Assembly (NCBI GenBank): GCA_017889635.1
Contig: JAGGAC010000024.1
Span: 1-33,998 of the forward strand
Length of the DNA stretch: 33,998 nucleotides
Source: Bacillota bacterium
GTDB taxonomy: Bacteria; Bacillota; Negativicutes; Sporomusales; CTSoil-080
Direction of reading: 5' to 3'
The translations under genes and the position numbers were made by a program. The notes below the pieces were generated by a model. The model was given only the letters and a program-made list of their open reading frames with translations, had not been told where the DNA came from and did not search any database. Below, piece after piece: positions 2,505-32,075 of this stretch; the stretch's first letter is position 1, and every line of letters begins with the position of its first letter.

Positions 2505-3233
2505 ATTAAGCGCAAAACGAAATACAACATCAATTTCGTTTTGCTTAACGATAACAGAATCAATTACTGTATGGATAATGTCCCTGACTTGGTCAGGGCT
2601 TTTTTCATTTAATGAAAAAGATTTAAGTATAGCTATTACTTGGTCGTTAGTCATATTGCGGTAAACGTATAGCTGTGACATTTGCTGAGTTTGATTTTCA
2701 ATTTCCGAAAGGCGGCAAGTTTTTCTTTGATTAAAGGGTTGAGTCCAGTTTCGTCAATTGCGGAAACTAAATTATAGATCTTCTTTGTTAACTCTTTCTT
2801 TTGATTTTGAAACACAGTTAATTCTTGCGTGGCTTCCTTACTAGACTCAGCAATTGCTCGATTGATACTTTCTGTTAAGAGAGGGATATTTTCATCTGAA
2901 AATTGTTGCTTGATATAGTCAAAAACAACAGCTTCAATATCTTCATTTTTAATACGAGCATTACCACAACTGTTGTTACGCTGCTGTTTATCGCAGCGGT
3001 AATAACTGTATTTATTTCCCCGGGAAGTAACCTTTGAACCGGACATTATAGCGCCACATTCACCGCAATGAACTAAACCACTTAAAAAGTAAGTCTCTTT
3101 TGCAGTATAAGCACCGGGGGGACGTTTAGTGAAATGACTTTGGACGTTGTTAAATGTATCAACATCGATTATTGGGGGAATTTTCCCTCCAATTTCAACC
3201 ATATTCTCGCTGTCTTTGTGTTATTACGTTTTT
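2505..3233 (-). pseudogene. Large serine recombinase, C-terminal remnant
   Basis: On the minus strand this encodes the second half of a large serine recombinase, the phage/integrative-element integrase family. The start of the recombinase DNA-binding domain (GGKIPPIIDVDTFNNVQ) is followed by the zinc beta-ribbon with CGECG, YRC and CGN cysteines, a coiled-coil stretch, and the typical tail VIVKQNEIDVVFRFA. The N-terminal resolvase domain with the catalytic serine is missing. The frame also breaks twice: near 2710-2720, where the reading must change frame to continue into MSQLYVYRNMTNDQV, and near 3221-3225, where an in-frame TAA interrupts the match. The last frame runs on antisense into the 3' end of ssrA and stops at about 2427. 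This is a dead gene left by an element inserted at ssrA. Confidence 0.8.
2506..2548. repeat. Long inverted repeat just after ssrA
   Basis: The arm 2506-2523 pairs with 2533-2548 (about 16 bp with a two-base bulge) around a nine-base loop. It begins two bases after the tmRNA CCA. It could end the ssrA transcript, but no T-run follows, and the same bases encode the C terminus of the recombinase remnant on the other strand. The function is uncertain. Confidence 0.4.
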
Positions 3234-3245
3234 CGGAAAAACGGA

Positions 3246-3849
3246 TAATATTGAGCGCGCAGCACTATCGACTTATAGATATATGGGAGCGACAATTTCT
3301 TTCCAAGTTATTGGTATGGTTGTACCCCTAGTCGTGTTTGTAAGCAACAGACCGAATGGAGACAGGGTTTCTCTTGTCGGCATTGCACTTGCCGTAATTG
3401 TATTGATTTGCTATATACTGTGTTACAAGCTGACAACTGAACGGGTTCATGATGCGAAAATGATGAGTGCCTTTTACGGCTTAGGAATCATTATAATGTT
3501 CATGATTGTTCCTATGGTGATACAGCTTATTAAAAGATTGGGGGTAAAAGAGGTTGCGGCAGGCGGTTTATTGTTTTCTGCGGTAATGTATTTAATTCTG
3601 TTCTTATTGCCAATAACCAATGTATATTTGTATCTAGTACTGGTCTTTATAGCTGAGTTTGGCAAGAACTTTTTCCTGTACACTCTTTGGGCAATGGTAA
3701 ACGATGTTATTGATTATCATGAGTATACTACCGGAATTCGTGAAGTAGCTACTATTTATTCAGTATACATGTTTATTGGAAAGTTAGCCCAGGCATATCT
3801 GCATGTTGTACAGATGGCTTATAATGTCATCTGCTTTTGGTATGTTTAA
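3246..3849 (+). pseudogene. GPH-type sugar:cation symporter remnant (MFS)
   Basis: The readable protein resembles the second half of glycoside-pentoside-hexuronide:cation symporters. It has an ALSTYRYMGA segment, several hydrophobic spans, and the family motif VNDVIDYHEYTTGIREVA. The first six membrane segments are absent. About 50-60 residues expected after the cytoplasmic ERVHDAK stretch appear deleted, because the sequence jumps straight to a later span. The end loses similarity after GKLAQA, consistent with a frameshift or truncation before TAA at 3847-3849. It directly abuts the recombinase remnant on the opposite strand, and the breakpoint lies around 3233-3246. It is unlikely to be functional. 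Confidence 0.7.
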
Positions 3850-4029: not shown

Positions 4030-4051
4030 CGCCCAAAAGGTGTTTTTCGAC

Positions 4052-4069
4052 AATATTAGTGGTAATATT
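4052..4069. repeat. Short perfect inverted repeat upstream of loaP
   Basis: AATATTA (4052-4058) and TAATATT (4063-4069) flank GTGG, just downstream of the candidate -10 box. The position and symmetry fit a transcription-factor operator, but AT-rich palindromes also arise by chance. Confidence 0.35.
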
Positions 4070-4116
4070 CAAAAAAAGTGATAAAAATATATTAGAAAAA
4101 GGTTTGGGTTGAGAAT

Positions 4117-4185
4117 ATGGCTAAGTGGAAAATTCTCTTGAATTTCATTGCGGAGGCGCATGAAATATTTAGGAGAAGGTTATAA
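4117..4185 (+). CDS. Possible 22-aa leader peptide
   Basis: An ATG at 4117 opens 22 codons ending in TAA at 4183-4185, predicting an amphipathic basic peptide with the core WKILLNFIAEAHEIF and the end RRRL. The Shine-Dalgarno match upstream (GGGTTGAG) is weak. The frame overlaps the hairpin at 4142-4166, so translating it would unfold that structure. It may be a translated leader peptide or simply chance. Confidence 0.25.
   Translation: MAKWKILLNFIAEAHEIFRRRL
4142..4166 (+). promoter_or_regulatory. Bulged RNA hairpin in the leader, candidate LoaP target
   Basis: ATTTCAT (4142-4148) pairs with ATGAAAT (4160-4166). A single bulged T at 4149 is followed by GCG/CGC pairs closing a GAGG loop (4153-4156). 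This makes ten pairs with one bulge, about 85-110 bases before loaP. LoaP proteins are known to recognise an RNA hairpin in the operon leader. That this is the one is inferred from position and quality only. Confidence 0.45.
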
Positions 4186-4249
4186 GTTTTCATATATTGG
4201 GGGTGTTTCTTCAAGCCCTTAATGGTTCCCTTATGCCGTTTTACTGGAG

Positions 4250-4789
4250 GTGTCCATTATCGAATGGTATGTATTACGTACTGCTTGTGGTAAAGAGGAT
4301 GCGGTTTTAGTGATCTTACGAAAGATGTTTTTTGAAGTAGAGTTTATTTATCCCAGGAGGAGAGTAAGTTGGCGGAAACAGGGACGGATTATTGATTTAC
4401 TCAGACCCTTATTTGAAGGCTATTTATTTGTTGTGTGTCCCAAGGAGAGGATTACGTTATTTGACCAATTATTGCGAATGAGCAAATTGAATATTGCTTG
4501 GTTGGTATATAGCGCTGGGACTTTAGTTCCGATTCTTAATGCCGAACGACAGTTAATTCAGCAGTTGATCGGGAGTGACGGAATCGTGGATGTGAGTATG
4601 GTTAAGAACCGAAATAACCAACTGGAGATAGTTAACGGACCTTTGGTTGGATTAGAGAATATAGTAAAAAAGGTTTCGCGTAGAAAACGGCGGATTACGG
4701 TAGAAATACCGATATTTGAAGAGAAAAGAGACATAGAGTTAGAGGGAATTTTAGTAGATACTGATATTAAGGAAGGTCGATTAACATGA
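4250..4789 (+). CDS. loaP: LoaP-type NusG paralogue, transcription antiterminator
   Basis: The product is about 179 aa with a NusG N-terminal domain at roughly residues 5-105 (WYVLRTACGKED near the start, PLFEGYLFV at 53-61) and a C-terminal KOW segment around 125-175 (NGPLVGLENIVKK). LoaP proteins travel with RNA polymerase and suppress terminators in long, often antibiotic-making, operons. As the first gene of a PKS-NRPS cluster this copy probably acts on its own operon. The start is unclear. GTG at 4250 overlaps the Shine-Dalgarno GGAGG (4246-4250), whereas ATT at 4256 or ATC at 4259 is spaced correctly from it, so a rare start codon is likely. The stop overlaps the next ATG by four bases (ATGA), implying translational coupling. 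Confidence 0.85.
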   Translation: MSIIEWYVLRTACGKEDAVLVILRKMFFEVEFIYPRRRVSWRKQGRIIDLLRPLFEGYLFVVCPKERITLFDQLLRMSKLNIAWLVYSAGTLVPILNAERQLIQQLIGSDGIVDVSMVKNRNNQLEIVNGPLVGLENIVKKVSRRKRRITVEIPIFEEKRDIELEGILVDTDIKEGRLT

Positions 4790-5589
4790 ATACAGTTCGT
4801 ACGTTAAATGATTGGATTCCATATCGGAGGTCGAGCAGAAAAAGCCGGTTGCGGCTTTTTTGTTTTCCTTATGCAGGCGGTAGCGCTTCGGTATTTCGGG
4901 AGTGGCTTGATTCTTTTCCGCCGGAAGTAGATGTTTGTCCTGTTCAGTACCCTGGTAGAGAAAAAAGAATGGCTGAGGTACAATTTACATTAATGGAACC
5001 GCTAATCGATGCGTTAGTTAAAGGTTTATTACCGGAAATTAATATTCCGTTTGCATTTTTTGGACATAGTCTAGGTGCTTTAATCAGTTTTGAATTGGCT
5101 CTTAGACTTCAAAAAAGAGGCATTAACCCTATTCGTTTATTTATATCTAGTTATCGTGCTCCTGTAATCGCGAAAAGAAAATCCCCGATGCATTTATTGC
5201 CAGATGCTGAATTTGTAGAGAGATTGCGCAAATATAATGGTACTCCGGAGGCTGTATTAAGCAATTGTGAATTAATGCGGGTGTTATTGCCTACTCTCAG
5301 AGCCGATTTCGCGCTTCATGAGACATATGTATATTCATCTGGTGCTCGGCTGAGTTGCCCAATTTCCACTTATGGCGGAATAGAAGATCCGGAAGTGAAT
5401 TATAATGATTTAAAATTATGGGAGGCGCAGACTACACAAAGTTTTAAATTAAAAATGTTCCCAGGAGACCATTTTTATATACATAACAGCCGTAGTGGGT
5501 TAGTTGCTTCTATTACTAACGATTTAATGCTTGATTATAGAAAATGCTATATAGAGCAAGATGGTATAAACACCGGAACGGGTGTTTAA
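4786..5589 (+). CDS. Type II thioesterase of the NRPS/PKS cluster
   Basis: A 267-aa stand-alone alpha/beta-hydrolase of the GrsT/SrfA-D group. These enzymes clear misloaded or stalled groups from carrier-protein arms and so keep the assembly line running. The N-terminal FCFPYAGGSA motif is present. The catalytic triad reads as Ser95 in GHSLG, Asp201 in GGIEDP and His229 in GDHF. The length is normal for the family. The ATG overlaps the loaP stop. The beginning of the gene carries a terminator-like hairpin (4839-4861), which may couple its expression to LoaP. Confidence 0.92.
   Translation: MNTVRTLNDWIPYRRSSRKSRLRLFCFPYAGGSASVFREWLDSFPPEVDVCPVQYPGREKRMAEVQFTLMEPLIDALVKGLLPEINIPFAFFGHSLGALISFELALRLQKRGINPIRLFISSYRAPVIAKRKSPMHLLPDAEFVERLRKYNGTPEAVLSNCELMRVLLPTLRADFALHETYVYSSGARLSCPISTYGGIEDPEVNYNDLKLWEAQTTQSFKLKMFPGDHFYIHNSRSGLVASITNDLMLDYRKCYIEQDGINTGTGV
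4839..4861 (+). terminator. Intragenic intrinsic-terminator-like hairpin
   Basis: AAAAAGCCG (4839-4847) pairs perfectly with CGGCTTTTT (4852-4860) around GTTG, followed by a total run of six T to 4861. This is a textbook intrinsic terminator placed about 55 bases inside the thioesterase gene and just after loaP. It would stop untreated polymerase after making loaP and could be a target of LoaP antitermination. Coding constraint on the FCFPYAGG motif explains only part of the T-run. Confidence 0.5.
5567..5588 (+). repeat. Hairpin at the end of the thioesterase gene
   Basis: TAAACACC (5567-5574) pairs with GGTGTTTA (5581-5588) around GGAACG and overlaps the thioesterase stop codon. No clear T-run follows, so it may stabilise or mark an RNA end rather than terminate transcription. 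Confidence 0.4.
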
Positions 5590-5622
5590 GTCGGTGGCTA
5601 AATAGCCAAATAAATATATATT

Positions 5623-5650
5623 TCTAGGTTAGATAAGCATTTAGCCTAGA
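5623..5650 (+). repeat. Stem-loop just upstream of the chemoreceptor gene
   Basis: A 12-pair stem with two G-U pairs (5623-5634 with 5639-5650) and an AAGC loop sits six bases before the chemoreceptor Shine-Dalgarno GAGG. No T-run follows. It could affect translation or RNA processing in this gap. Confidence 0.4.
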
Positions 5651-5669
5651 GCATTGAGGTGGGGACAAT

Positions 5670-7370
5670 TTGTTTAAGGAGAATAGAATTCCAGTTTTAG
5701 TACAGATAACGGGTATGTTTGGACTAATTATAGTTTTGTTTGTGTTAGCAGTTGGTTTTTCTGTTTATAATTTTACAATTATTTCAAGGGAGGTTAAAAA
5801 TGTTTCATCGCAAACAGTTCCACGACTGATAGTAACTAAAGACGCGCATAGGTTATTTACTAATGCTTTATTAAATATGCGTGGTTTTATACTGTATGGT
5901 GGTGAATCAGCTTATGAAGCAAGCTATCGTGATGATATAGTTAAAGCAACAAGCGAAGTGCAAAGTTATCGAGATGCTTCAACAGAAAAAGATACTCAAG
6001 AGCAAAGTGGAAAACTTCTGCAAGAATTAAAAGATTACCAAGTAATTGGTGAAAAAATAATTGCCGCCAAAAAGATAAATGCTTCTAATCTAAGTGAACT
6101 AACTACACAAGGAAGAATTTTGGTGGATAAGATTAACGAAGATTTTTCTAAACTAGCGACAGTGCAAGAAGCCTATTTTAATACTAGAACAGAAAAAATG
6201 ATTAATGATATTGATGGTACTAATATAAAAACAACGATTATTTCATTACTTACTTCCATTTTAAGTGTGATAATAGCATTTTTATATGCTAATAGATTAT
6301 TAAAGCGTATTGCCATATTAAACGATGTAATAGCCCGAATTGGGCTATTAGATTTGACGCCTAGCTGTTATAAAGTCTCCACAAATGATGAATTTGGCGA
6401 TATGTTAATACAGCTTGAAGAAACTAAGACCCATGTTTGCGAAACGGTTACTAATGTTCAAGAGTCAGCTTCAGTTTTAGCGGCTTCTTGTGAAGAATTG
6501 ACTGCGACTACGGATGAATTTTCCCGGTCGGCTGAATTTGTCTCAGGAAATATAATTGATATTGCTGCAAGTACAAGTGAGTCAGCAACGAATATTGCAA
6601 ATGTTTCAACGACAATAGGCGAAGTATCAGCTAGTGCAGGGAAATTAAGTGCAGGAAATATACAAATAGACGAAAGTACTCAAGATGCGGTAGCAGAGTC
6701 GCAAAAAGGCATGGAATTATTGGAAGCCGTGGTGACACAAAATCAAACTATTTCAATTTCAATGGGTAAAATAGGAAATACGGCAAATGCGTTAAATAAA
6801 TCATCTGAGCAAATTAAAATGATTGTTGATGTTATTTCAAGTATTGCAAGTCAGACTAATTTACTTGCATTAAATGCAGCAATTGAGGCTGCGCGTGCTG
6901 GCGAAGCCGGAAAGGGTTTTGCAGTGGTTGCTGAAGAGGTTAGAAAACTAGCTGAGCAATCAGAGAATTCAACGCGAGAAATATCAGCTATTATCCAAAA
7001 CATTAGTAATGAGATAAGCAATATGATGGCTATATCAGGCACTGCGGTAACTGAAACTGAAAAAGGTAAGGAGTTTGCTGTTACTACGAAGCAAGGCTTT
7101 GAAAAGATTATTGACCAACTAGGAAAGGTTAGTAACAGCATCAAGGAAATGGCACAGGCATCTGAAGGTATTGCTCTAGGAACACAGGCAGCGGCTGTAA
7201 ATATTCAAGCGGTTAGCGAAAATGTATCATCCAATTCCGGTAAGATTCAAACTGTGGCTGCTGCCACAGAGGAACAAACTGCTAGTATGACTGAAGCAGC
7301 TAGGAATATTGCTGAACTGGCCAATTTAGCTGTTAAAATGAATGAGGATGTAAGTAAATTTAAAGTCTAG
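5670..7370 (+). CDS. Methyl-accepting chemotaxis protein
   Basis: A 566-aa membrane chemoreceptor. It has a first membrane segment at about residues 10-33, an extracytoplasmic four-helix-type sensor at 34-185, a second membrane segment near 187-206 and a HAMP domain at about 207-260. A long cytoplasmic signalling coiled coil follows. The highly conserved hairpin tip that contacts CheA/CheW ([20 protein letters not shown] core) is at about 389-431. No C-terminal CheR/CheB pentapeptide is seen. The start is TTG at 5670 behind GAGGTGGGG, with no better codon nearby. Its place between the thioesterase and the fatty acyl ligase, in the same direction, is unusual. It may sense the product or a related cue, or it may be a passenger. 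Confidence 0.9.
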
Positions 7371-7430
7371 GCTTGAATTGTAGTGGTAATACTGGTTAAA
7401 ACAGCTAGAAATGTGATACTGTGTCAACAA

Positions 7431-7459
7431 GTTAGCGCCTTAGGGCGTTTAATTTTTTT
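7431..7459 (+). terminator. Intrinsic terminator inside the cluster
   Basis: The core stem CGCC (7436-7439) / GGCG (7444-7447) with loop TTAG is extended by G-U and A-T pairs and one mismatch, and runs into seven T (7453-7459). It lies 60 bases after the chemoreceptor stop and 57 before the fatty acyl-AMP ligase start. Without antitermination it would separate the first three genes from the synthetase genes. Confidence 0.65.
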
Positions 7460-7516
7460 GTTTGCCGATGAATTAATTAGGCTGCTTTAGCAGTTTTAGA
7501 AATTGGAGGTAGATTT

Positions 7517-9301
7517 ATGAAGATGGCAGTTGCTGACTCGCTGGAAAAAATCTTATCACTGGTGGAACTTCTACGATATCGGGCGTTTAAGCATCCGGAA
7601 AAACGGGTATACACTTTTTTGTCTAGCGGAGAAACTGAAGGAAGTCACTTGTCTTATAAGGAGCTTGACATACGGGCTAGAGCTGTCGCAGCCTTTTTGC
7701 AAAGTCTTAATTTAGAGGGCGAACGTGCGCTGCTTATTTATCCAGCGGGATTAGATTATATTATCGCTTTCATGGGCTGCCTGTATGCTGGTGTTGTTGC
7801 TGTACCTGCTTATCCGCCAAGGCTTAACCGCAATTTATTAAGGCTCAAGAATGTTGTAAATGATTCAAACGCTAAGGCCGTGCTGACTACCTCGACAATT
7901 ATTTCCAAGTTTGAACCGTTGATTGCTCAAACATCCGGGTTATCAGAAGTGGAATGGCTAATGACTGATGAAATCAATACGGCAATAGCAGGTCGATGGA
8001 AGGAGCCGGAAATAACGAAAGACACACTGGCGTTTTTGCAGTACACTTCTGGCTCGGTAGGAGTACCTAAGGGCGTGATGGTAAGTCACGGCAATGTTCT
8101 TAATAACGAAAAGCTGATACAGACGGCTTTTGAGCTTGATGAAGAAAGTACTATTGTTGGATGGCTGCCTATTTATCACGATATGGGATTGATGGGTAAT
8201 GTACTGCAAGCTCTTTATCTTGGAAGTACCTATGTTTTTATGTCGCCAGTAGATTTTTTGCAAAAGCCATACCGGTGGCTGAAAGCAATTTCCGACTATA
8301 AGGGAGTTTTGAGCGGTGCTCCGAATTTTGCTTATGAGTTGTGTATTAATAAGATTACCGAAGCGCAAAAGGAAACACTGAATCTAGTTTCCTGGAAAAA
8401 AGCCTTCAATGGAGCAGAACCTGTCCGCTATGAGACAATTGAGCGGTTTGCGGCAACGTTTGCGTCGGTTGGTTTTCGCCAAGAAGCGGCGTACCCTTGT
8501 TATGGTATGGCTGAAACAACGTTAATGGTTTCTGGCGGTGCCGTCAGTGAACTTCCTGCATATGGAAAGTTCAGTTCAGAAGAGCTTGAAAAAAATGTTG
8601 TTTCTATCGGTAGTAGCGAAAAAGATCGAATGTTAGTAAGTTGCGGACACGCTTGGCTGGATCATAAGCTTGTTATTGCTGATCCTAAGAAATTATGCCG
8701 TTGCTCGGCTGATAGAGTAGGGGAGATATGGGTTTCTGGGTCTAGCGTTGCTCAAGGGTATTGGAATAAGCCTGAGATTACTGAGAGCACTTTCAGGGCT
8801 TACCTTGCCGACAGCGGAGAAGGTCCCTTTTTGAGGACTGGCGATCTCGGGTTTATTCATGAGGGGGAGCTTTTTGTTACCGGTCGTCTTAAAGATCTTA
8901 TAATTATACGGGGCACAAACCATTACCCCCAAGATATAGAGTTAACTGTGGAAAAATGCCATCAAGCTATTCGACCAGGCGGCTGTGCCGCGTTTTCTAT
9001 GGAAATTGACGGCGAAGAACGTCTGGGTATTGTTGCTGAAATTGAACGGCAATACCGCCCACGCGGGAACAAGAGTCAAGTTAGTAGCAATGAAAATGGC
9101 CAGAACAAAGTTCTGGAAGAAATTTATTCTGCAATTAAGCAGGCTGTATTTACAAATCATGAGCTTCAGGCTGATAACATATTGCTGCTTAAGCCAGGAA
9201 GTATTCCCAAAACTTCAAGCGGCAAAATTCAACGTCATGCCTGTCGCAATGGCTTATTAGACGGAACGCTGAGTGCTGAAAGGGGACTAACGAATGGGTA
9301 A
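7517..9301 (+). CDS. Fatty acyl-AMP ligase (FAAL) loading the lipid starter
   Basis: A 594-aa adenylate-forming enzyme of the FAAL class. It activates a fatty acid as acyl-AMP and passes it to an ACP, here presumably the ACP at the start of the next protein. Visible signatures are YTSGSVGVPKGVMVSH (about 175-190), the FAAL-type LPIYHDMGLMGN, CYGMAETTL, RTGDLGF and the C-terminal PKTSSGKIQRH, with the catalytic lysine at 570. The ATG follows a good GGAGG (7505-7509). The last eight bases overlap the PKS-NRPS start at 9294, indicating coupled translation and a shared pathway. The preferred chain length cannot be read from sequence. Confidence 0.92.
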   Translation: MKMAVADSLEKILSLVELLRYRAFKHPEKRVYTFLSSGETEGSHLSYKELDIRARAVAAFLQSLNLEGERALLIYPAGLDYIIAFMGCLYAGVVAVPAYPPRLNRNLLRLKNVVNDSNAKAVLTTSTIISKFEPLIAQTSGLSEVEWLMTDEINTAIAGRWKEPEITKDTLAFLQYTSGSVGVPKGVMVSHGNVLNNEKLIQTAFELDEESTIVGWLPIYHDMGLMGNVLQALYLGSTYVFMSPVDFLQKPYRWLKAISDYKGVLSGAPNFAYELCINKITEAQKETLNLVSWKKAFNGAEPVRYETIERFAATFASVGFRQEAAYPCYGMAETTLMVSGGAVSELPAYGKFSSEELEKNVVSIGSSEKDRMLVSCGHAWLDHKLVIADPKKLCRCSADRVGEIWVSGSSVAQGYWNKPEITESTFRAYLADSGEGPFLRTGDLGFIHEGELFVTGRLKDLIIIRGTNHYPQDIELTVEKCHQAIRPGGCAAFSMEIDGEERLGIVAEIERQYRPRGNKSQVSSNENGQNKVLEEIYSAIKQAVFTNHELQADNILLLKPGSIPKTSSGKIQRHACRNGLLDGTLSAERGLTNG

Positions 9302-12300
9302 AGGACAGCGCGGAGCAATGAGAGAAGTCAATATGAAAGCCACATGTGCCAAGGATACAAAAACAAGTAATGAAATTGAGAAATGGCTAAGGTTACGGTT
9401 AGCTGAACGGTTAAAGGTGGAACCAAGCAAGATTGATATTTGCGAACCTTTATATAATTACGGGCTAGATTCATCCTCAGCGGTCACTATTACTGGGGAA
9501 ATGGGAGAATGGCTAGGCCAGGATATTTCTCCAACCTTGGTATGGGATTACCCTACTATTGAGGATATTACCAGATTTTTAACTTTAGGTACCGGAGATT
9601 CTGCGATTAAAAATGCGGTAAGTCAGAATAGTACGGCAGAGCCGATTGCGATTATCGGTATTGGCTGCCGTTTTCCCGGTGCTGAAGGACCGGAAGCTTT
9701 CTGGAGTTTGCTAAAAAATAACATCGATGTAATCACCGAGACCCCGATTCAACGTCGTGTTCAGGGAAAAAATGCTAGTTGGGGCGGGTATCTTAATAAT
9801 ATTGATGAATTTGACGCCCGATTCTTCGGTATTTCACCGCGGGAAGCTGCTGAGATGGATCCACAGCAACGTTTATTGCTGGAAGTATCATGGGAGGCAT
9901 TGGAAGATGCCGGACAGATTCCTGAGCGCTTAGTTGGTCAGCCTGTAGGCGTATTTATTGGTATTTCCGGTTACGATTATGGGGCGATGTTAAGAAACTT
10001 TTCGGATACAGATATTTACGCTGCTACCGGTAATGCTCTGAGTATCGCTGCCAACCGTATTTCCTATTTATTTAATTTTCAAGGGCCTAGTTTGGCAATT
10101 GATACTGCGTGCTCATCCTCTTTGGTAGCAGTACATCTGGCTTGCCAAAGCTTGCGAAATGGGGAATCAAAGCTTGCTCTGGTTGGCGGGGTCAATCTTT
10201 TGCTATCACCGGATGTTACGGCGGCATTTGATAAGGCCGGCATGTTGTCGTCTGATGGCAGATGCAAGACTTTTTCCGCAGAAGCAAACGGCTATGTTAG
10301 AGGCGAGGGGGCGGGAGTTGTGGTGCTCAAGCCATTATCTAAGGCGCTTCATGACGGGGATTCGATTTATGCATTAATTCCAGGCAGTGCTGTTAATCAA
10401 GACGGACGTAGTAACGGGTTGACAGCTCCAAACGGCCCCGCTCAAGAAGCAGTACTGCGGGAAGCATACCAACGAGCCGGTGTATCTCCTGGTGAAATTC
10501 AGTATGTTGAGGCTCATGGAACAGGCACTTCGCTGGGTGATCCTATTGAAGCCAAAGCATTAGGACGGGTACTTGCTGAAGATAGGTTGCCGCAGAATCG
10601 TTGCTTGATTGGTTCAGTTAAGACCAATATTGGGCACTTGGAAGCTGCTGCGGGGATGGCGGGGTTGATTAAAGTTGCTTTGGCTCTGAAGCATCGTGAA
10701 ATTCCAGCAAGCCTTCATTTTGATAAACCAAATCCATATATTCCTTTTGAGAAATTGCCTTTATGTGTACAAACAGAAACTGGACCATGGCCGAATATGT
10801 CTTCTTCACTGCTGGCCGGGGTAAGTTCCTTTGGGTTTGGCGGAACTAATGCTCATGTGGTTTTGGAAGGTTTTCAGGCTAGTTCTTTAAAAAAACACAG
10901 TATGACCAGTTATTTCCCGCGAGCGGAGCACCTCTTCGCTATTTCAGCAGTGGATCAGAAAGCTTTGCGTGAATTGGCGCAGTCCTATCGTGATTATATG
11001 AGCAGGTCGGACAGTAATATATCAATAAAGGATATATGTTATACTGCCGGAAATCGTCGGAAACACCATGATTATCGTATGGCGATGGTTGTACGTTCCA
11101 GACAAGAGATGGTTGAATACCTAGATAATTACCTTAATGGTGAAGCGATGCCTGCTTATCAACTCGGACAGAGGACTCACGGCAATTCTTCCAAGGTGGT
11201 TTTCGTTTTTTCTGGGCAAGGGTCTCAATGGTGGGCAATGGGACGAGAACTTTTCCAAGAGGAACAGGTATTTAGAGAAATTATTGAAGAATGTGATGAA
11301 TTATTTCGTTGCCATGTGGATTGGTCATTGATTACTGAATTAACAGCAGAAAAATCAGAGAGTCGTTTGGATCAAACGGAAGTTGCTCAACCGGTTCTCT
11401 TTGCAGTGCAAGTAGCTTTGGCCAAGTTGTGGATGTTATGGGGTATTCAGCCGGCAGCCGTTGTCGGTCATAGTATGGGTGAATTGGCAGCGGGGTATAT
11501 TGCCGGAGCTTTGAGTCTTTCTGATGCGGTTCGGGTCATTTTCCATCGCAGCAGACTTATGCAGAGAACGACTGGCCAAGGAAAAACAGTGGCGGTTGAG
11601 CTTGCTTGGGATGAGGCCGAATTATTGCTTGCTGGGTATGAAGATAAAATTTCTATTGCCTGTTATAATGGGCCAACATCACTGGTTTTATCAGGCGAAC
11701 CTGCTGCTATGAATGAAATTATGGCAAAGTTGGAGCAAATGAACGTATTTTGCAAGGCGTTGCCTGTAGACTATGCTTTTCATAGTTATCAAATGGAGCC
11801 GTTAAAGGATGAATTAACAGCATCTCTAAAGGGGCTGCAGTCAGAAGTTGCTGTGCTTCCTATTTACTCAACGGTTACAGGAAAGGTTATAAATGGCCAG
11901 CAACTTAACTCAGCTTACTGGGTAAAAAATCTCCGAGAACCGGTACTTTTTGCTACAGCGGTGGAGCATTTGGTGGAAGATGATTACAATGCATTTTTGG
12001 AGATAAGCCCGCATCCTGTACTCGCAGGTGCGGTTAGGCAAAGCTTAAACAAGCTGGGAAAAGAGGGTATCATACTGCCCAGTTTGCGCAGGCAAGAACC
12101 AGAGCGAGCTTGCCTGCTAAAGTCTTTGGGAGGTCTTTATACAAAAGGCTATCAAGTAAACTGGGATGGTCTTTATCCTGAAGGTGGTAAGTGCATTGCT
12201 CTACCGAAATATCCTTGGCAGCGGGAACAATACTGGTTTGAAATGAAAGAGCATAAACCAATTTTTACAGTTGATAAGTTTAATGTTTCTGATAAAATTG

Positions 12301-15300
12301 ACCGTTGGTTATATAAGGTGGAGTGGAAGCCTAAAGAGTTAAGGACATATGAAGAGCAGGCTTATGAACGTCGGGCTCAAGGAACTTGGTTAGTTTTTGC
12401 CCAACGAGATGGTATTGGCGAGTTGGCAGCCCAACGTTTGGTAAAACAGGGCGAAAAGGCAATTGTGGTTTATCCAGGAGAAGCCTTCGAGTGTTTAGCA
12501 GAAGGCGTGTTTAGTATAAGGCCGGATCGCAAGAATCTTGACAGGCTTGTGAACACTGCTTTTGATTCTGACTGGGACGGTTGTCAGGGAATTTTACATA
12601 CATGGGGTATTGGCTCGGGGGATAATGACAAGATAATTCAAGCTGACTTGGAAAAAAGTCAGACTATGGGTTGTCGGCATGTCCTTGAGCTAATTCAGGG
12701 TATTAAGGAATCTAAAAAAGAAGTGATTCGAAACTGGCCGCGTTTATGGATTGTTACTAGGGGAAGTCAAGCTGTTAGTATTGAGGGTGAAATTGTCGAT
12801 TTTACCCAAGCGCCATTATGGGGCTTGGGAAGGACAATTGCGGTTGAAGAACAGGAGCTGTGGGGCGGTTTGGTGGATTTGGATCCCAATATGTTGGATG
12901 AAAATTCCGCCCAAATGTTAGTAGAAGATATACTCGTTTCAAGTGGAGAAGATCAAGTTGCTTATCGACAAGGAACACGCTTTGTAGCCAGATTGAAACA
13001 GCAGAGTCTGGGTGGGGAAAAAGATCGTTCTATTGGGTGGCAGACAAACGGCACGTATTTGATAACCGGTGGACTCGGCGATTTAGGTTTAACGGTTGCC
13101 AAATGGATGGTGAAGCAAGGTGCCAGAAGACTGATTTTGTTGGGGAGAAGCAAGTTGCCGCCGCGTAGTGCCTGGGATAAAGTTTGTGAGACCAAAGATC
13201 ATTTGGCCAATAAAATCGATACTATTAAAGAGTTGGAAGCAATGGGAGCCAATATTCATTTAGCCGCAGTCGACGTAGCAGATGCAGAGCAAATTGAGAC
13301 TTTTCTTACAAAATTCCAGGGAGAAAGTTGGCCGCCGATAAGAGGCGTTGTTCATGCTGCCGGGATTGTGGATAACCAATTATTGGCGACATGTAACCCA
13401 GATGCTTTTTATCAAGTCTTAAGACCTAAAGTTGAGGGGGCTTGGTTGCTCCACCAATTATTGAAGGATGTCCCTTTGGACTTCTTTATCTTATTCTCGT
13501 CAAACTCAGCGTTGCTTAGTTCTCCACGCTTGGGCAGTTATGCGGCGGCAAACGCTTTCTTGGATTCTTTGGCACATTATCGGCGTAGTGTTGGATTGCC
13601 TGCGTTAAGCATTAACTGGGGGCCCTGGGCTGAAATCGGTATGGCGGCGCGGTTTGATATATTGTCGTCGACTACCGGCATGGGTATTAGCTCAATATCA
13701 CCAGAGCAAGGACTAGAAATGCTAGGATTTTTGATTGGTAAGGATATAACCCAGGTTGCAGTTATGGAGATAGATTGGGTGCGCTGGAAGATGGTTAGCC
13801 AGCAGGATGGGAAAACCGGGTTGTTGGCGGATTTATTGCAGGAAGAAGGTAATTTGGTCAAAGCTATCGGCAATGTCAGCGATCAAGACACCTCTATTCG
13901 CCAGGCACTTATAGCCGCTAACAAAAGTGAGCGCTATAAACTTTTGGAAAAGTATCTTTGCGATCAGGTTGCACAGGTGCTACGGCTAGCTAATTCCAAA
14001 CTTGATGTCAGTGTATCGTTAACCAGTTTAGGGCTTGATTCCATAATGGCCGTCGAGTTAAAGAACAGAATTGAAAAAGCGCTGGATATAATTGTTCCGA
14101 TGGTAAATTTTTTACAAGGACCAAGTGTTACAGAGTTAGCTGCTCAAATTCAAACGCTGTTGACGTTAGATTCTGAAATTGCGGTTATTCCTATAGCTCC
14201 TAAGCAGGAAGTTTATCCAGTATCATCGGCGCAAAAACGAATGTTTATTCTAAATCAGTTCGAAGTAAATGATACTTCCTACAATAATTCTGTGGCCTTT
14301 ATGATAGAAGGCGCTCTGGATATACCGCGCTTTGAGAATGTGATTAAATCGCTCATTCAACGGCATGAAACATTACGTACTTCTTTTGAAATTATTGACG
14401 GGGAAACTGTACAAAGAATTCATGAGTCGATTGAGTTTGCAATCGACTTTATTCATGGGGCTGAAAGAGATATACCTAATATTATACAAGAATTTGTGCA
14501 GCCCTTTGATTTAAGCAAAGCTCCGCTCTTTAGAGTCGGGCTGGTCGAATTGACTAAAACAAAATATATGGTGGTGTTCGACATGCACCATATCATATCC
14601 GATGGCGTGACAGCAGCTATTTTTATAAAAGAGTTGGCAAGCCTCTATGAAGGCCTGGAATTACCGGATCTGAGAATACAGTACAAGGATTTTGCTATTT
14701 GGCAAAATAGTGTGTTTCAGACTGAAGATTTTAGGAAACAGGAAGAATACTGGCTGCAAAATTTTGTGGGAGAACTGCCGGTATTGAATATGCCGAGCGA
14801 TTATCCAAGGCCGCCGGTTAGAAGCTTCGAGGGAGCGGTGCAACAGTTTTCCCTGGATGAAAAATTGACGGGAGAACTAAACAAACTTTCCAGGGAAAAT
14901 GGTACGACTCTGTATATGGTGCTCTTGGCAGCGTATAATGTCGTATTGGCTAAATATACCGGTCAGGAAGATATTGTTGTCGGCTCGCCGATTGCGGGAC
15001 GCCAGTACGCTGATTTGCATAATATTATTGGTGTATTTATAAATACGCTGGCGATGCGCAACTTTCCGGAAAAAGATAAAAGCTTCCTGGAATTTTTGCA
15101 AAAAGTCAAAGAGAATGCTCTTTCAGCCTATGAACATCAGGATTACCCATTCGAAGAACTAGTTGATAAACTGGATATACCAAGAGATTTAAGCCGGAAT
15201 CCATTGTTTGATACCATGTTTGCCTTACAAAGCGTGGATATGGCGGAACTGACAATTGGCAGCTTGAGATTTTCACGTTATGAATTCTACAATAGAATTG

Positions 15301-18300
15301 CAAAATTTGATTTGACAGTAGAAGCGATAGAAAGAAACAATCGGCTAGATTTTACACTGGAGTATGACACTAAACTGTTTAAGCAAGAAACCGTGCAAAG
15401 ATTGAAAGGACATCTTGAAACTGTCCTGAAAGCCATCGTAGAACAGCCTGAGATCAAATTGGCAGACATTGAGCTTGTGTCTGAAGCTGAAAAACAACAG
15501 CTCCTTTTTGATTATAACAATACAAAAACAGATTATCCGAAGGATAAGACTATTCAGGAAATATTTGAAGATCAGGTCGCAAAGAATCCCGATAATATTG
15601 CCATAGTATTTAAAGAGCAGAAACTTACTTATAAAGAACTAAACAATAAAGCTAATAAACTGGCGTTGGCATTAAGAAACAAGGGAGTAAAAGCGGGCAG
15701 AATTGTCGGTATGATGGTGGAACGTTCGCCGGAAATGATAATCGCCATTATGGGGATATTGAAGGCCGGAGGGGCATGTCTGCCAATTGATCCGGAGTAT
15801 CCGGAGGAGAGAATCAGCTACATACTGGAAGATAGCAGGACTAATATTTTATTGACTCAACGGCATTTGGTGCAGACAATCGCCTTTGCAGGAGATATTA
15901 TTGCTGTAGATGCCCAGGAATTATACCAGGGCGAGGCTGAGAATCCAATACAACAAAATACCGCACAGGATTTAGCCTATATAATCTATACCTCAGGATC
16001 GACAGGTAAACCTAAAGGCAATTTGACGATGCATCACAATGTCGTTCGGGTGGTAAAAGAGACAAATTATATTAAAGTCACGGATCATGATGTGTTACTG
16101 CAACTGTCAAACTACGCCTTTGACGGATCGGTATTTGATATCTATGGTGCACTTTTAAACGGAGCTAAACTGGTGTTGTTAGACAAGGAAACAGTGCTGG
16201 ATATGGGGTGTTTAGCTAAGGTAATCGAGCAGGAAAAAGTAACCGCCTTCTTTATTACAACCGCCTTATTCAATACGTTAGTGGATGTAAATATTGAATG
16301 CTTGAAAAATATAAGAAAAGTACTGTTCGGCGGAGAGCAGGTTTCGGTGCGACACGTACAAAAGGCTTTCGAGTACCTGGGAAGCGGCAGGATAGTACAT
16401 GTTTATGGTCCGACAGAGACGACGGTTTTTGCAACATATTACGAAGTAAACCATAGCGACCCCGGCGATTTAAGCGTACCGATTGGTGCTCCAATAGCTA
16501 ATACTGTAATTTACATTTTGGATCAGGGCGGAAATTTGCAGCCTGTTGGTGTTCCAGGAGAATTGTGCATAGCAGGAGACGGCTTGGCTAGGGGATATTT
16601 AAATAGACCGGAACTGACAGCAGAGAAGTTTGTCGCAAATCCCTTTGCACCTGGGGAAAGAATGTATAGGACCGGTGATCTTGCCAAATGGCTGCCGGAC
16701 GGAAATATTGAGTTTTTAGGCCGGATAGATCACCAAGTAAAAATCCGGGGCTTTAGAATTGAATTGGGTGAAATCGAAGCCGAAATCCTGAAGCATCCAG
16801 ATATAAAAGAAACATGCGTTATGGCGAAGGACGATCCAACAGGTCAGAAGTATCTCTGCGCGTATGTTGTAGCCGAAGATGCATTTGATGCAAGGGAACT
16901 GAAGGCGTATTTGAGAAATCCGCTGCCTGATTATATGGTACCAACAAGCTTTGTCCAGCTTGAAAAGCTGCCGCTTACACCAAATGGGAAGGTCGACCGA
17001 AAGGTGCTGCCTGAGCCGGAGGGAAGAATGAGCGGTGCTTCGGAATACGTAGCACCACGCAATGAAGCCGAAGAAAAGCTGACGCGGATTTGGCAGGAAG
17101 TTCTAGGTGTTGAGAGGATCGGAATAGAAGATAACTTCTTTGAACTCGGCGGACAATCTCTAAAAGCGATAACCCTTGTCGCTAAAATCCATAAAACCTT
17201 TGGGGTCGAAGTACCGTTGCAGGAAGTATTTAAGGCTCAGACCATTAAAGCACTTAGCCAAATAATTCAGAATGTGGCGGAAACTGATTATATAGCAATA
17301 GAACCGGTAGCTGAAGCGGAATACTATCCAGTATCATCGGCGCAAAAGCGGATGTTTATCCTGAATCAGTTCGAAAATGGCGATACTGCCTATAATATGC
17401 CTGCGGCATTTAAGGTGGAGGGGGCTTTTGATAAAAAGCGGTTTGAAGAGGCCTGGGAAAAATTGGTTCAGCGCCATGAAGCATTAAGAACCTCTTTTGA
17501 ATTAAGTAATGGTGAACCTGTACAAAGAGTTCACGAAGCGGTTGCGTTTAGCATCGGCCAACTTAAAGGCGCGGAGAAAGACATCCCCAGCCTTTTCCAA
17601 GCTTTTGTGCATCCCTTTGATTTAAGTAAAGCGCCGCTTTTTCGTATCAACCTGGTTGGAATAGCTGAAAACCAGTTTGTTATGTTCTTTGATATGCATC
17701 ATATAATATCTGACGGTGTATCTATGGAAATTTTAGTCAAAGAATTGACAAGGTTGTATAAAGGAGAGGAACTTCCAGAACTAAGAGTTCAGTACAAAGA
17801 TTTTTCGGCTTGGCAAAATAGCTTGTTTACAACGGAGCGTTTTAAACAGCAGGAAAAATACTGGTTGCAAACTTTTGACGGAGAATTGCCAGTACTAAGC
17901 TTGCCAAACGATTATCCAAGGCCGCAGGTTCGAAGTTTTGAAGGTGATCAGTATGAATTTGCGCTGGGCGAAGAAGTAACGGAGAAACTAAACAAACTGG
18001 TGGGGCAAACAGGCGTAACGATGTATATGGTGCTGCTGGCGGCGTATAATGTCATATTGTCCAAGTATAGTGGTCAGGAAGATGTTATTATCGGTACGCC
18101 AATTGCTGGTAGACCGCATGCTGATTTGGAAAACGTAGTGGGGATGTTTGTTAATACACTGGCAATGCGAAATTATCCGGCAGGAGACAAAAAGTTTACC
18201 GATTTTTTACAAGAAGTCAAAAAAAATGCGCTATCAGCATATGCGCATCAGGATTATCAGTTTGAAGAATTGGTGGACAAGCTGGATATACCAAGGGATT

Positions 18301-21300
18301 TAAGTAGAAATCCGCTGTTTAGTACACTATTTACACTGCAAAACATGGATATAGGTTTGCTGGAGATAGATAGTCTAAAGTTTTCAGCGTATGAACTGGA
18401 CAATAATACAGCAAAATTTGATTTAACTCTACGGGCAATTGAAAGAAATAACCGACTAAACTTTACCTTGGGGTATTACAGCAGACTGTTTAAGAAAGAG
18501 ACGGTTGAGCAGTTTGGACAGCATTTTGTTAATGTGTTAACAAGTATTGTAGAGCAACCTGAAGTAAGATTAGCGGAAATTGCACTACTGACCGAGGATG
18601 AAAGAAACCGGATTCTAGTTGACCTTAATAACACGAATATTGTCTATCCTAATAAAACAATCAAAGAATTATTCGAATTGCAGGTCAAAAGAAATCCGGA
18701 TAGTATTGCTGTAACTTTTGTGAATCAGCACCTAACTTACCGGGAATTAAACTATAGAGCCAACCAATTCGCAAGAGTGCTAAGGAATAAAGGAGTAAAA
18801 CCAAATAGCATTATTGGCTTAATGGCAAAGCGGTCTTTGGAAATGATCGTTGGAATAATGGGGATATTGAAAGCCGGCGGGGCCTATTTACCAATTGACC
18901 CTGAGTATGGGGCCGAAAGAATTGCCTATATGCTCGAAAATAGTCAATCTGAAATCGTTCTCACTCAAAACGATGTTATTTATAAGGTACCAAAAAATAT
19001 TGTAATAATTGATTTTGCTGACGTGAGTATCGGGTGCGAAGATGGTACGAATCTCGATACTCTAAACCAACCGGAAGATCTAGCCTATGTAATCTATACA
19101 TCAGGAACTACTGGACAACCAAAAGGAGTAATGATTGAAAATTGCAATGTAGTAAATCTAGTTTATGGCTTACAAGATTGTATCTACAATAAGTATGTTT
19201 CAAACCTAAATGTAGCATTATTATCACCGTACGTGTTTGATGCTTCAATCAAGCAGATTTTTCCGGCGCTTTTAAGCGGGCATAATTTGTGCATCGTGCC
19301 GGAAGATATCCGCTTTGACCGAAGTGGCTTATTGAACTTTTACCAGAAGACTAAAACAGATATTTCTGATGGGACGCCAGCGCATATTAGAGTATTAAAT
19401 TCTATCTGTCGAGAGGGTGAATGTTTAAATGTAAAGGAATTTTTAATAGGCGGGGAAGCGCTGTCGGGTGCATTGGTGGGAGAATTCTGCAAAAATTTTA
19501 AGAACAGCAAAATTAACATTACTAATGTTTACGGGCCAACCGAGTGTTGCGATATTGCAACGCTCTATAAAGTTGATTGCGACGTAGCTAATAGCGGAGA
19601 TATTGTACCCATCGGAAATCGGCTTCCAAATGTAAGAATCTATATATTGGGGAAAGATTTGGAGGTTCTTCCTTTTAACGCTGTGGGTGAGGTTTATATT
19701 AGTGGAAAAGGCGTTGGAAGGGGATATATAAATAACCTAGGACTAACGGCAGAGAAGTTTGTGGGAAATCCATTTATTATAGGTGAGAGGATGTACCGGA
19801 CCGGGGACTTGGGGCGGCAATTGCCTGATGGAACCATAGAGTTTTTTGGCCGGGTAGATCATCAAGTAAAGATTCGAGGTTTTAGGATCGAACTAGGTGA
19901 GATCGAAGCGAAGCTTTTGGAGCATAAAGAAATAAAAGAAACGATCGTTGTTGCGCGAGAAGAAGTAAGTGGCAATAAATATCTTTGCGCGTATATCGTA
20001 GCAAACGGTGAACTCTCGGCTAAAGAACTAAGGGAACATTTAGGCAAAACATTGCCAGAGTATATGATACCGTCCTACTTCCTTCAACTTGAAAAGCTGC
20101 CGCTTACATTGAATGGTAAGATCGACCGAAAGGCGTTGCCCAAGCCGGAGGGGAGAATTAATACTTCGGCGGAGTATATAGCGCCGCGAAATGAAGCTGA
20201 AGAAAAACTGGCGCAAATCTGGCAGGATGTTTTAGGCGCTGAAAAGGTCGGGATTGAGGATAATTTCTTTGAGCTTGGCGGTCATTCATTAAAGGCGATA
20301 AATCTTGTTGCTAAAATCCATAAAGCCTTTGGCGTTGAAATACCTCTGCTGGGAGTATTTAAGGCTCAAACCATAAAAGAACTGATGGAAATGATAGCGG
20401 GTGCGGCTGAAACTGACTATGCCGCGATCGAACCGATCGCAAAGGCGGAATATTATCCGGTATCGTCGGCGCAAAAGAGAATGTTTATTCTGAATCAGTT
20501 CAAAGCAAGTGATACTACCTACAACATGCCAGCGGTTTTTAAAGTAGAGGGGAAATTAGATAAACAGCGGTTTGAAAATGCATGGAAAAAACTCATTGAG
20601 CGGCACGAAACGCTGCGGACATCATTTGTAGTTATCGAAGGTGAGCCTGTTCAAAAAGTTCATGATGGCGAGATTCAATTCACAATGGACGTGATTCAAG
20701 GGAATGAAGAGAATATACCGGGTATAGTTAAAGCATTTGTGCGGCCCTTTGATTTAGGAAAAGCTCCGCTTCTTAGAGTGGGGCTGGTCGAAGTTGCTGA
20801 AACCGAGCATATGGTATTGTTTGATATGCACCATATAATATCTGATGGTGTGTCCATGAGGATTTTAGTCAAAGAACTTACCAGACTATATGAAGGACAG
20901 GAATTAGCAGAGCTCAGGATTCAATATAAGGATTTCTCTGCTTGGCAGAATGGCGTGTTTAAAACTGAAGCCTTTAAGAAACAAGAAGAGTATTGGCTTA
21001 AAACTTTTAACGGTGAAATTCCAGCACTTAACCTGCCGAGCGATTATTCGCGACCGACGGTTAGAAATTTTGCCGGAGATCGGCTGAGTTTTACCGTAGG
21101 GGAAGAATTAACAGGAAAGTTGAATGACTTGGCGGGGCAAAACAGCGCAACGATGTATATGGTGCTGTTGGCGGCTTATAATGTTATGCTGGCTAAGTAT
21201 AGCGGACAGGAAGATATTGTTATAGGGTCGCCAATTGCCGGTAGAGCGCATGCGGATTTAGAAGGTATTATCGGGATGTTTGTTAATACCCTGGCGATGC

Positions 21301-24300
21301 GCAACTTCCCGGAAAAAGATAAAAGTTTCAGAGCGTTTTTGGAAGAGGTTAAAGAAAATGCGCTGTCAGCCTATGAGCATCAGGATTACCAGTTTGAAGA
21401 ACTGGTGGATAAGCTTGATATACCGAGGGATCTAAGCAGGAATCCGCTGTTTGACACCATGTTTGTTCTGCAAAATATGGATACCATAGCTCTGGAATTT
21501 AAAGGTTTGCGATTTTCTAGCTGTGAAATAGACAGTAAGATCGCGAAATTTGATTTAACTTTAGAGGCAGTGGAAAGAAATAACCACCTTGAGTTTACGC
21601 TGGAGTACGATACTAAACTATTTAAACAAAAAACGGTGGAAAGATTAGGTAGGCACTTTGTAAATGTGTTAGCTAGTATTGTAGAACAGCCTGAGATCAA
21701 GCTGGCGGATATCGATATAGTATCTGAGGCTGAAAAACGCCAACTACTTATTGATTTTAACGATACAAAAATGGCCTATCCGAAAGATAAGACCATCCAG
21801 GAACTTTTTGAAGAGCAAGTAGCTGAGAACCCAGATCATATTGCTGTAGTATTAGGAGAACAACAGCTTACGTATAAAGAACTTGACGCTAAAGCTAACC
21901 AACTGGCGCGAGTATTAAGAAACAAGGGGGTAGCATCGCCCTGCATTGTGGGTATTTTGGCTGAGCGGTCGCCTGAACTGATTACTGGGATAATGGGTAT
22001 TTTGAAGGCCGGAGGAACATACCTGCCGATTGATCCGGAGTATCCAGAGGATAGAATCAGTTATATGCTGGCAGATAGCGAAAGCAAGATATTATTAGCA
22101 CCGCGGCATTTAGCAGATAAGGTGGTTTTCTCTGGGGAAATTATCCATTTGGATGATCCTAGTCTGTATATTGGAGATTCCTCCCGACTATTTTTAGAGC
22201 GTAATCCTAGGGACTTAGCCTATGTAATTTATACTTCAGGTTCGACAGGCAAACCTAAGGGGGTTGAGATTGAACATACCAGTCTGGTTAACTTGGTATC
22301 TTGGCACCGACGCATATATAATATTAAGGCTGAAGATCGGGCCACCCTGCTGGCTGGGCAGGCCTTTGACGCTGCGGTTTGGGAAATCTGGCCGTATCTG
22401 ACCTCGGGTGCCGGATTATACATTCCTGATAATAGAACTAGAGCTTTCACAACCGGTTTAATAAAATGGCTTAAAGACAACAAGATTACTATAAGCTTCA
22501 TGCCGACGCCAATGGCCGAAGCGCTCATGAATGAAGAGTGGCCGCAGGAAATGGCGCTTCGGGCGCTATTAACCGGCGGGGATAAATTGCATTGCCGGCC
22601 CCAAGAGATGGCTTTTATGTTGGTTAATCACTATGGTCCAACTGAAAGCACGGTTGTTGCTACCTGGGGCACTGTCAATCCGGATGAGCCTGGAGATGTG
22701 CTTCCTTCTATAGGGCGACCGGTAGATAATACGCAAATCTATATTTTGGACAAAAATAACAAGTTGCAACCTGTTGGTGTACCGGGGGAAATGTGCATAG
22801 CTGGAGATGGTTTGGCTAGAGGCTATTTAAACAGAACGGAACTGACAGCAGAGAAGTTTGTCGTCAATCCCCTCGTTCCGGGAGAAAGAATGTATCGGAC
22901 AGGCGATCTTGCGAAATGGCTGCCGGACGGGAATATTGAGTTTTTAGGCCGGATAGATCACCAAGTAAAAATCAGGGGCTTTAGAATTGAACTGGGTGAG
23001 ATCGAAGCAGAAATTCTGAAGCATCCAGCCATAAAAGAAGCATGTGTTCTTGTAAAGGACGATGTAGGCGACCAGAAGTATCTCTGCGCGTATATTGTAG
23101 CCGAAGAAGCACTTGATGTAAGGAACCTAAAGGCGTATTTAAGAAAGCCACTGCCTGATTATATGGTGCCAACAAGCTTTGTTCAGCTTGAAAAGCTGCC
23201 ACTTACGCCGAATGGGAAGATCGACCGAAAGGCGTTGCCTGAGCCGGAGGGAAGAATGAGCGCTGCTGAGGAGTACATGGCACCGCGCAATGAGGCCGAA
23301 GAAAAGCTGGTGCGGATTTGGCAGGAGGTTTTAGGTGCTAAGAAGATTGGAATAGAAGATAACTTCTTTGAACTTGGCGGACAATCTTTAAAAGCAATAA
23401 CCCTTGTCGCTAAAATTCATAAAACATTTGGGGTAGAAGTACCGCTGCAGGAAGTATTTAAGGCTCAAACAATTAAAGCGCTTAGTAAAATAATCGATAG
23501 CTTAAAGGCAACTGATTATATAACAATAGAACCAGTAGCTAAAGCGGAATATTATCCCGTATCATCGGCGCAAAAGCGGATGTTTATCCTGAATCAGTTC
23601 GAAAATGGCGATACTGCCTATAATATGCCTGCGGCATTTAAGGTGGAGGGTTTTTTAGATACGGCTAGATTTGATGATTGTTTGAACAACTTGATTCAGC
23701 GGCATGAAACGCTACGGACGTCTTTTGAATTAGTTGATGGGGAACCGGTACAAAGGGTTCATGAGGCGGTTGAGTTTACTATTGATATGAGTAAAGGAAA
23801 TGAACAAGAAATATCGGATATCCTCAAAGCTTTTGTGTCTCCTTTTGATCTAAGTAAAGCCCCGCTTTTTCGTGTCAAACTGGTTGAAATAGCTAAAAAT
23901 CAGTATGTGGTGCTCTTTGATATGCACCATATTATATCTGACGGTGTAACGATGGGAATTTTAGTTGAAGAACTGGCAAAGTTGTATGAAGGACAGGAGC
24001 TAGCAGAACTGAGGATTCAGTACAAAGATTTTTCGGCTTGGCAAAATAACCTGGTGACAACAGAAAGTTTTAAACAGCATGAAGAATACTGGTTGAAAAC
24101 TTTTGCCGGAGAGTTGCCGGTATTAAGTATGCCGAGCGATTATCAAAGGCCGCCGGTTCGAAGCTTTGAAGGCGCTCGGTTAGAATTTGCTTTGGGCGAA
24201 GATGTGACGAAGAAACTAAACAAATTGGCGGGGCAAGCAGGTGCAACGATGTATATGGTGCTGCTGGCGGCGTATAGCGTTGTATTGTCCAAATATAGTG

Positions 24301-32017: not shown

Positions 32018-32075
32018 AGATGACGAGTTATAACAGGCTGTTAGTAAGAACTAAGTGGGCTGGGAGGAGATTTGT

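Follow-up and report, generated by a model that had tools for sequence, protein, structure and literature searches.

A probable LoaP-type antitermination circuit with its own RNA code at a lipopeptide operon of the Sporomusales

The DNA considered here is a stretch of 33,998 nucleotides from a member of the Sporomusales (Bacillota bacterium, assembly GCA_017889635.1, contig JAGGAC010000024.1; hereafter the window, G000:C109 in our numbering), taken from a 4.5 Mb draft assembly of 152 contigs. It carries a biosynthetic cluster in which, from 4250 on, every gene lies on the + strand: a NusG paralog resembling LoaP is followed by genes for a thioesterase, a methyl-accepting chemotaxis protein (MCP), a fatty acyl-AMP ligase (FAAL) and large enzymes of the polyketide synthase (PKS) and nonribosomal peptide synthetase (NRPS) types. 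An earlier note on this DNA had described the cluster as a lipopeptide operon under a self-contained LoaP antitermination circuit, and the first part of this description is borne out by the thioesterase, the MCP, the FAAL, an ACP-KS-AT-KR PKS module and the NRPS modules. The 5' leader of the operon contains an RNA element, termed R1, which is very probably the signal that this LoaP-type protein recognizes. The main features are as follows:

4129-4186, + strand: R1 leader RNA element (covariance model, 67.5 bits)
4195-4242, + strand: second leader module, consisting of a hairpin (4195-4224), then GTTCCCTTA, TGC (4234-4236) and a T-run
4250-4789, + strand: loaP-type NusG paralog of 179 amino acids, with a GTG start (NCBIfam LoaP model, alignment A7 and tree)
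4786-5589, + strand: type II thioesterase (Pfam Thioesterase, 162 bits)
5670-7370, + strand: MCP (Pfam MCPsignal, 147 bits)
7434-7459, + strand: terminator-like hairpin with a T-run between the MCP and FAAL genes, the proposed LoaP-controlled checkpoint
7517-9301, + strand: FAAL, the first synthetase gene (Pfam AMP-binding and FAAL models)
9294-27998, + strand: PKS/NRPS megasynthase of 6234 amino acids, ACP-KS-AT-KR-ACP followed by C-A-T modules (Pfam)
28031-32017, + strand: NRPS of 1328 amino acids (Pfam)
32055-33998, + strand: NRPS, C-A, interrupted by the contig end (Pfam)

R1 is built from an outer stem (4133-4139/4171-4177), an inner stem (GCG at 4150-4152 pairing with CGC at 4157-4159) closed by a GAGG loop (4153-4156), and a tail 3' of the outer stem, GGUUAUAAG; its tip, GCGGAGGCGC, is almost invariant among copies. 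The segment 4135-4180 folds at -16 kcal/mol (z -4.5), a value reached by none of 200 shuffled sequences, so that the strong leader hairpin seen by the earlier note holds up and is, in addition, conserved and covarying. The leaders of the window and of three other genera share the same layout: AAAATTC, a variable stem, TGCGGAGGCGC, the matching stem and GAACGTTAT (alignment A1). A covariance model built from six copies (four loaP leaders and two motifs from a related genome, G008) was run over whole genomes, and in the resulting alignment of 11 copies 95.5% of the cells in paired columns are paired and 8 of the 12 pairs show two-sided changes. Against 500 shuffles, none attained the observed covariation on four of five measures, and all shifted registers scored far lower; these counts are biased, as six of the 11 copies built the model and the alignment was fitted to it. 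In the G008 copies outside the model the stems are likewise altered on both sides, and these copies are located before the same type of gene. R1 is a real covarying RNA element. It has no counterpart in Rfam, whose only match over the window is the transfer-messenger RNA (tmRNA), with nothing credible in the leader even at permissive E-values. When TGCGGAGGCG was searched as a bare genome pattern, its five matches equalled the control; thus, the motif alone is uninformative, whereas the structure model is informative.

The distribution of R1 follows that of the protein. Among 28 genomes of the order, R1 is present in all five that encode a LoaP of the window's clade, and in the other 23 no copy rises above noise (best match E=0.96); that match, in G007, lacks the second module and was set aside as noise, as was one at L038 9461 (E 0.97). 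A scan of 398 phylum genomes, among them seven others that encode distant LoaP-like proteins, found R1 only in the window's own genome and in none of the other 397, with stricter filters that could let weak copies escape. In three relatives the element lies in the loaP leader, as in the window. In G008 the leaders of the two loaP genes are themselves devoid of R1, yet the motif occurs in the operon adjoining each of them, on the opposite strand upstream of one and downstream of the other. This genome holds seven copies. Six of them precede genes of trans-acyltransferase (trans-AT) PKS type, for a ketosynthase, an acyltransferase or a phosphopantetheinyl transferase, and thus targets like those of Bacillus velezensis LoaP; the seventh and weakest precedes a B12-radical SAM gene. 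By comparison, the draft assembly of the window has one LoaP and one R1 copy, with loaP inside the operon, in line with a self-contained circuit. Because R1 recurs before antibiotic-type operons only in related genomes carrying such a LoaP, it very probably acts as a tag telling this LoaP which operons to read through. The R1 model finds likely targets genome-wide with little noise, and could help to uncover silent biosynthetic operons that are controlled by antitermination.

The 4250-4789 protein matches the antiterm_LoaP model best among NCBIfam models (118.1 bits, E 4e-34; curated cut-off 125), far ahead of UpxY (41 bits, cut-off 100), NusG (32 bits) and RfaH (19 bits, cut-off 144.5). Pfam NusG also matches it, and the closest solved structure by sequence is 8f5g in the PDB (E 6e-15). 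The housekeeping nusG is a distinct gene, lying on contig C54 in a secE-nusG-rplK context, and the claim that a LoaP-type gene leads the cluster therefore stands. Its neighbour, as expected of a loaP gene, is a long secondary-metabolite operon, of FAAL/PKS/NRPS type in the window and of trans-AT PKS type in G008. The window protein is 61-78% identical to the LoaPs of three other genera of the order, and the order's six LoaPs form a single, fully supported clade on a long stem branch. In B. velezensis LoaP, the residues that contact RNA are E40, R41 and I143 (PMC12691694). R41 is kept in the clade and position 143 is V where LoaP has I; the residue equivalent to E40 is W in all six clade LoaPs (alignment A7). 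E40 is kept in five other aligned LoaP-like proteins of the phylum and in four Bacillus LoaPs. The gene in G003 (L009 1310-1335) shows a peculiarity of its own: it lacks an ordinary in-frame start codon, with a stop immediately before the conserved N-terminus and a start region one base longer than the window's, which may reflect either a fault of the assembly or a genuine lesion.

The second leader module recurs as well. An equal layout is found in 10 of the 11 copies, where TGC and a T-run come 6-12 nucleotides after the 3' arm of a second hairpin; such a module arises in about 1-4% of shuffled sequences for most of the copies, and in 11% for a single one. The his pause has a hairpin ending about 10 nucleotides before a U-G step, and the similar geometry makes the second module a probable RNA polymerase pause of the hairpin type. 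Two further signals lie upstream of R1:

4043-4055, + strand: TTTTTCGACAATA, candidate Spo0A box, invariant in four loaP leaders
4079-4088, + strand: TGATAAAAAT, possible extended -10 of a putative leader promoter, with TGnTAAAA kept in four leaders

The first of these is expected 0.01 times in the window. It is a candidate Spo0A site by the known consensus, TTCGACA being the reverse complement of TGTCGAA, and as such it suggests sporulation-phase control of the operon. A second TGTCGAA is present in L007, at 3082.

Two terminator-like hairpins had been reported downstream of the leader by the earlier note. Both exist, and comparison with relatives is what separates them, because a consensus scan for such hairpins in the region (15 found, 9.9 +/- 3.1 expected) barely exceeds chance. 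In relatives, the 7434-7459 hairpin keeps both its place and its pairing: G002 and G003 likewise have a hairpin with a T-run between the MCP and FAAL genes, a C-G pair having become U-A in G002 (A6), and G027, which has no MCP, carries a terminator-like hairpin between the thioesterase and FAAL genes. The other was not conserved:

4838-4870, + strand: terminator-like hairpin (4838-4861) with a T-run within the thioesterase gene, possibly incidental

Its surroundings fold well (4836-4870, -12.7 kcal/mol, z -3.0, matched by 2 of 300 shuffles), but relatives do not retain its stem (A5), on which ground it was rejected as the main checkpoint, and the conserved thioesterase codons for Leu-Phe-Cys-Phe-Pro largely account for its T-run. 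This hairpin may thus be incidental. No compact terminator lies between the R1 hairpin and loaP in the four leaders examined. Several G008 leaders (among L037, L038, L039 and L040) contain a third long hairpin, of the CCCCCCTGTTTAAG ... CTTAAACAGGGGGG type, whose T-run is weak and which might act as a NusA-dependent terminator.

Taken together, these features point to processive antitermination of the LoaP type, in a circuit that uses an RNA code of its own, a reading that we consider probable. Transcription would start upstream of 4129, possibly under Spo0A control, and the nascent leader would fold as the R1 hairpin, to be bound by LoaP made from the same operon. The second module would probably make RNA polymerase pause, giving the LoaP-RNA complex time to join it. 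Polymerase modified by LoaP would pass the 7434-7459 terminator into the FAAL, PKS and NRPS genes, while polymerase without it would yield mainly an mRNA for LoaP, the thioesterase and the MCP. This amends the earlier expectation that little beyond loaP would be made without LoaP, the conserved candidate checkpoint being 7434-7459. Since there is no clear terminator between the hairpin and loaP, some LoaP could always be made and would then raise synthetase gene expression; the presence of loaP inside the operon that it would control, in the window and in three relatives, fits the feed-forward layout proposed before. What the sequences themselves show is a covarying element, its joint occurrence with LoaP, its placement ahead of PKS-type operons and a terminator conserved among relatives; binding, pausing, termination, antitermination and feedback are inferred from these. 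The idea of the earlier note thus holds in outline and its interpretation is partly supported, with all-or-none switching standing as conjecture.

Several observations weigh against this reading. The protein score falls narrowly below the curated LoaP threshold; E40, which is needed for binding the dfn hairpin, is replaced by W in the clade; the R1 loop is GAGG or AAGG (RAGG) rather than UNCG; the R1 model, run on the Bacillus loaP loci, has no match at the dfn leader even with filters off, so that no identity with the dfn hairpin is claimed at the sequence level; and the 7434-7459 hairpin alone only modestly beats chance (7426-7465, -10.1 kcal/mol, z -2.1, with 12 of 300 shuffles as good). 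Because the window protein misses the curated cut-off and one RNA contact, and its element the UNCG loop, it was filed as a divergent LoaP-type variant rather than a standard member, one that very probably works like LoaP. The published LoaP site is a UNCG hairpin; in the window a GAGG loop, and W at the E40 position, take the place of that loop and its contact. The system thus looks like LoaP-type antitermination with a changed RNA specificity, in which a RAGG loop goes with W for E40. At the recognition surface, protein and RNA both differ from their Bacillus counterparts, a correlation that stems from one evolutionary event and is not proof.

An alternative is that the 7434-7459 hairpin merely ends a small loaP-thioesterase-MCP operon, and that the FAAL and NRPS genes have their own promoter, with LoaP not acting on this block. 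An MCP is indeed unusual as an operon member, and the 57 nucleotides from the T-run to the FAAL gene in the window would leave some space. A promoter before 7517, which the earlier note had named as an observation that would speak against its circuit, was sought by consensus scan, and no sigma-70-type match was found on the + strand at 7371-7516, in a scan that does not cover all promoter types. In G003 and G027 the T-run is separated from the FAAL start by only about 25-40 nucleotides, ribosome site included; therefore, there is little or no room for a promoter, and read-through is the simplest way to transcribe the synthetase genes. Moreover, R1 in G008 directly precedes the PKS genes themselves. 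This alternative is thus unlikely. It is just as doubtful that R1 is read not by LoaP but by a small molecule, a different RNA-binding protein or a ribosome at the GGAGG sequence, while LoaP uses a DNA or pause signal like RfaH. The GGAGG loop does resemble a Shine-Dalgarno sequence, and a 20-codon open reading frame (4160-4222, MKYLGEGYKFSYIGGVSSSP) follows it in the window, with a similar one in G002; furthermore, direct contact between LoaP and RNA is here presumed, and the E40 contact is not conserved. Against this, R1 strictly co-occurs with LoaP across the 28 genomes and has no Rfam match, an RNA hairpin at the equivalent leader position is a known target of LoaP (PMC12691694), and the reading frame is absent from most other copies, on which ground a leader-peptide attenuator was also rejected. 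That R1 and the second module are simply an intrinsic promoter or leader part inherited with loaP, with no role in termination control, is very improbable even though the entire leader, including the Spo0A-like box, is conserved beside loaP in four genomes, given the seven recurrences in G008 without the upstream box, away from loaP and before other operons, and the compensatory replacements in the stems.

The proposed LoaP circuit resembles that of B. velezensis, where a leader hairpin, a pause and internal terminators act together, the pause between hairpin and terminator in the dfn leader aiding antitermination, and where LoaP is reported as the sole NusG-type factor of bacteria that is known to recognize a particular RNA element, a UNCG hairpin in the 5' leader (PMC12691694). 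Both systems have a NusG paralog that keeps R41 and I/V143, a leader RNA hairpin followed by a pause, internal terminators (pause and terminator being predicted in the window) and long PKS/NRPS operons as targets. The window differs in that its LoaP has 28% protein identity, belongs to a separate clade and has W for E40; its element has a RAGG loop where dfn has UNCG; its loaP lies within the target operon, behind the hairpin, rather than divergent from it; and its target is an NRPS operon containing a chemoreceptor gene. In the LoaP literature examined, the RNA element has been described only for B. velezensis dfn and mln, so that a separate LoaP clade with a defined, covarying element of different sequence offers a natural specificity swap for dissecting LoaP-RNA recognition.

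The comparison also bears on a puzzling result in dfn: antitermination was reported to be lost when the 10 nucleotides immediately 5' of the hairpin were deleted, an effect given no firm explanation, and the mln leader shows no sequence similarity at that place (PMC12691694). The dfn leader was taken from two LoaP-bearing Bacillus genomes, G449 and G463; the geometry of the leader, together with a second occurrence of the hairpin before a further trans-AT PKS gene (presumed mln), served to identify it. TTCAATCGCTGTTTCGGCACGTTGAA, with a UUCG loop, lies about 53 nucleotides into the dfn leader if the published 417 nucleotides end at the dfnA start, a position that fits the published UNCG hairpin and its five 10-nucleotide upstream deletions; in G463 the core is present again, one mismatch apart, before this further trans-AT PKS gene, presumed to be that of macrolactin. 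CCTATTAAAT directly precedes TTCAATCGCTGTTTCGGCACGTTGAA, and its CCTATT pairs with a downstream AATAGG (L048 8695-8745, - strand). The mln leader (L066) has AUAAAA/UUUUAU at the matching place, where the minimum-energy fold favours another pairing. Besides this possible outer stem, dfn has a similar tail after it, the R1 tail GUUAUAA resembling GAUUAUAA of the dfn leader. An R1-like outer stem would account for both the effect of the deletion and the lack of sequence similarity in mln, an explanation that is testable. Tentatively, and with rather less confidence than the circuit itself, we suggest a second LoaP code, in which E40 changed to W alongside UNCG to RAGG, with a large outer stem and an attached pause, serving as an autogenous feed-forward loader or as a tag on about seven operons, the outer stem being general to LoaP elements and explaining the dfn deletion. 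A separate likeness, between TACATGCTTTTTGC before the terminator in the mln leader (L066, - strand) and the CATGCnTTTTT end of the order's second module, may be due to chance.

Other NusG paralogs offer more distant parallels. UpxY of Bacteroides capsule operons also heads the operon that it controls and acts in its own 5' leader; the window protein differs in its 41-bit score, its putative RNA hairpin target, and its phylum and product. RfaH is likewise an operon-specific paralog recruited at a leader signal and pause, as proposed for the window, but ops is read as non-template DNA, whereas the compensatory changes in R1 indicate an RNA structure, and the window protein scores only 19 bits against the RfaH cut-off, no search aimed at an ops DNA element having been made.

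The MCP gene occupies an equivalent position within the operon in G002 (L007 4624-6330) and G003 (L009 2734-4434) and is absent in G027, a placement that may indicate some connection of the lipopeptide product with chemotaxis signalling. Upstream of the cluster, smpB and the tmRNA gene (ssrA, 2158-2504) precede the remnants of a truncated recombinase (its zinc-ribbon part, 2651-3202, - strand) and a truncated GPH/MFS transporter (3154-3849), and these recombinase and transporter remnants separate ssrA from the cluster.

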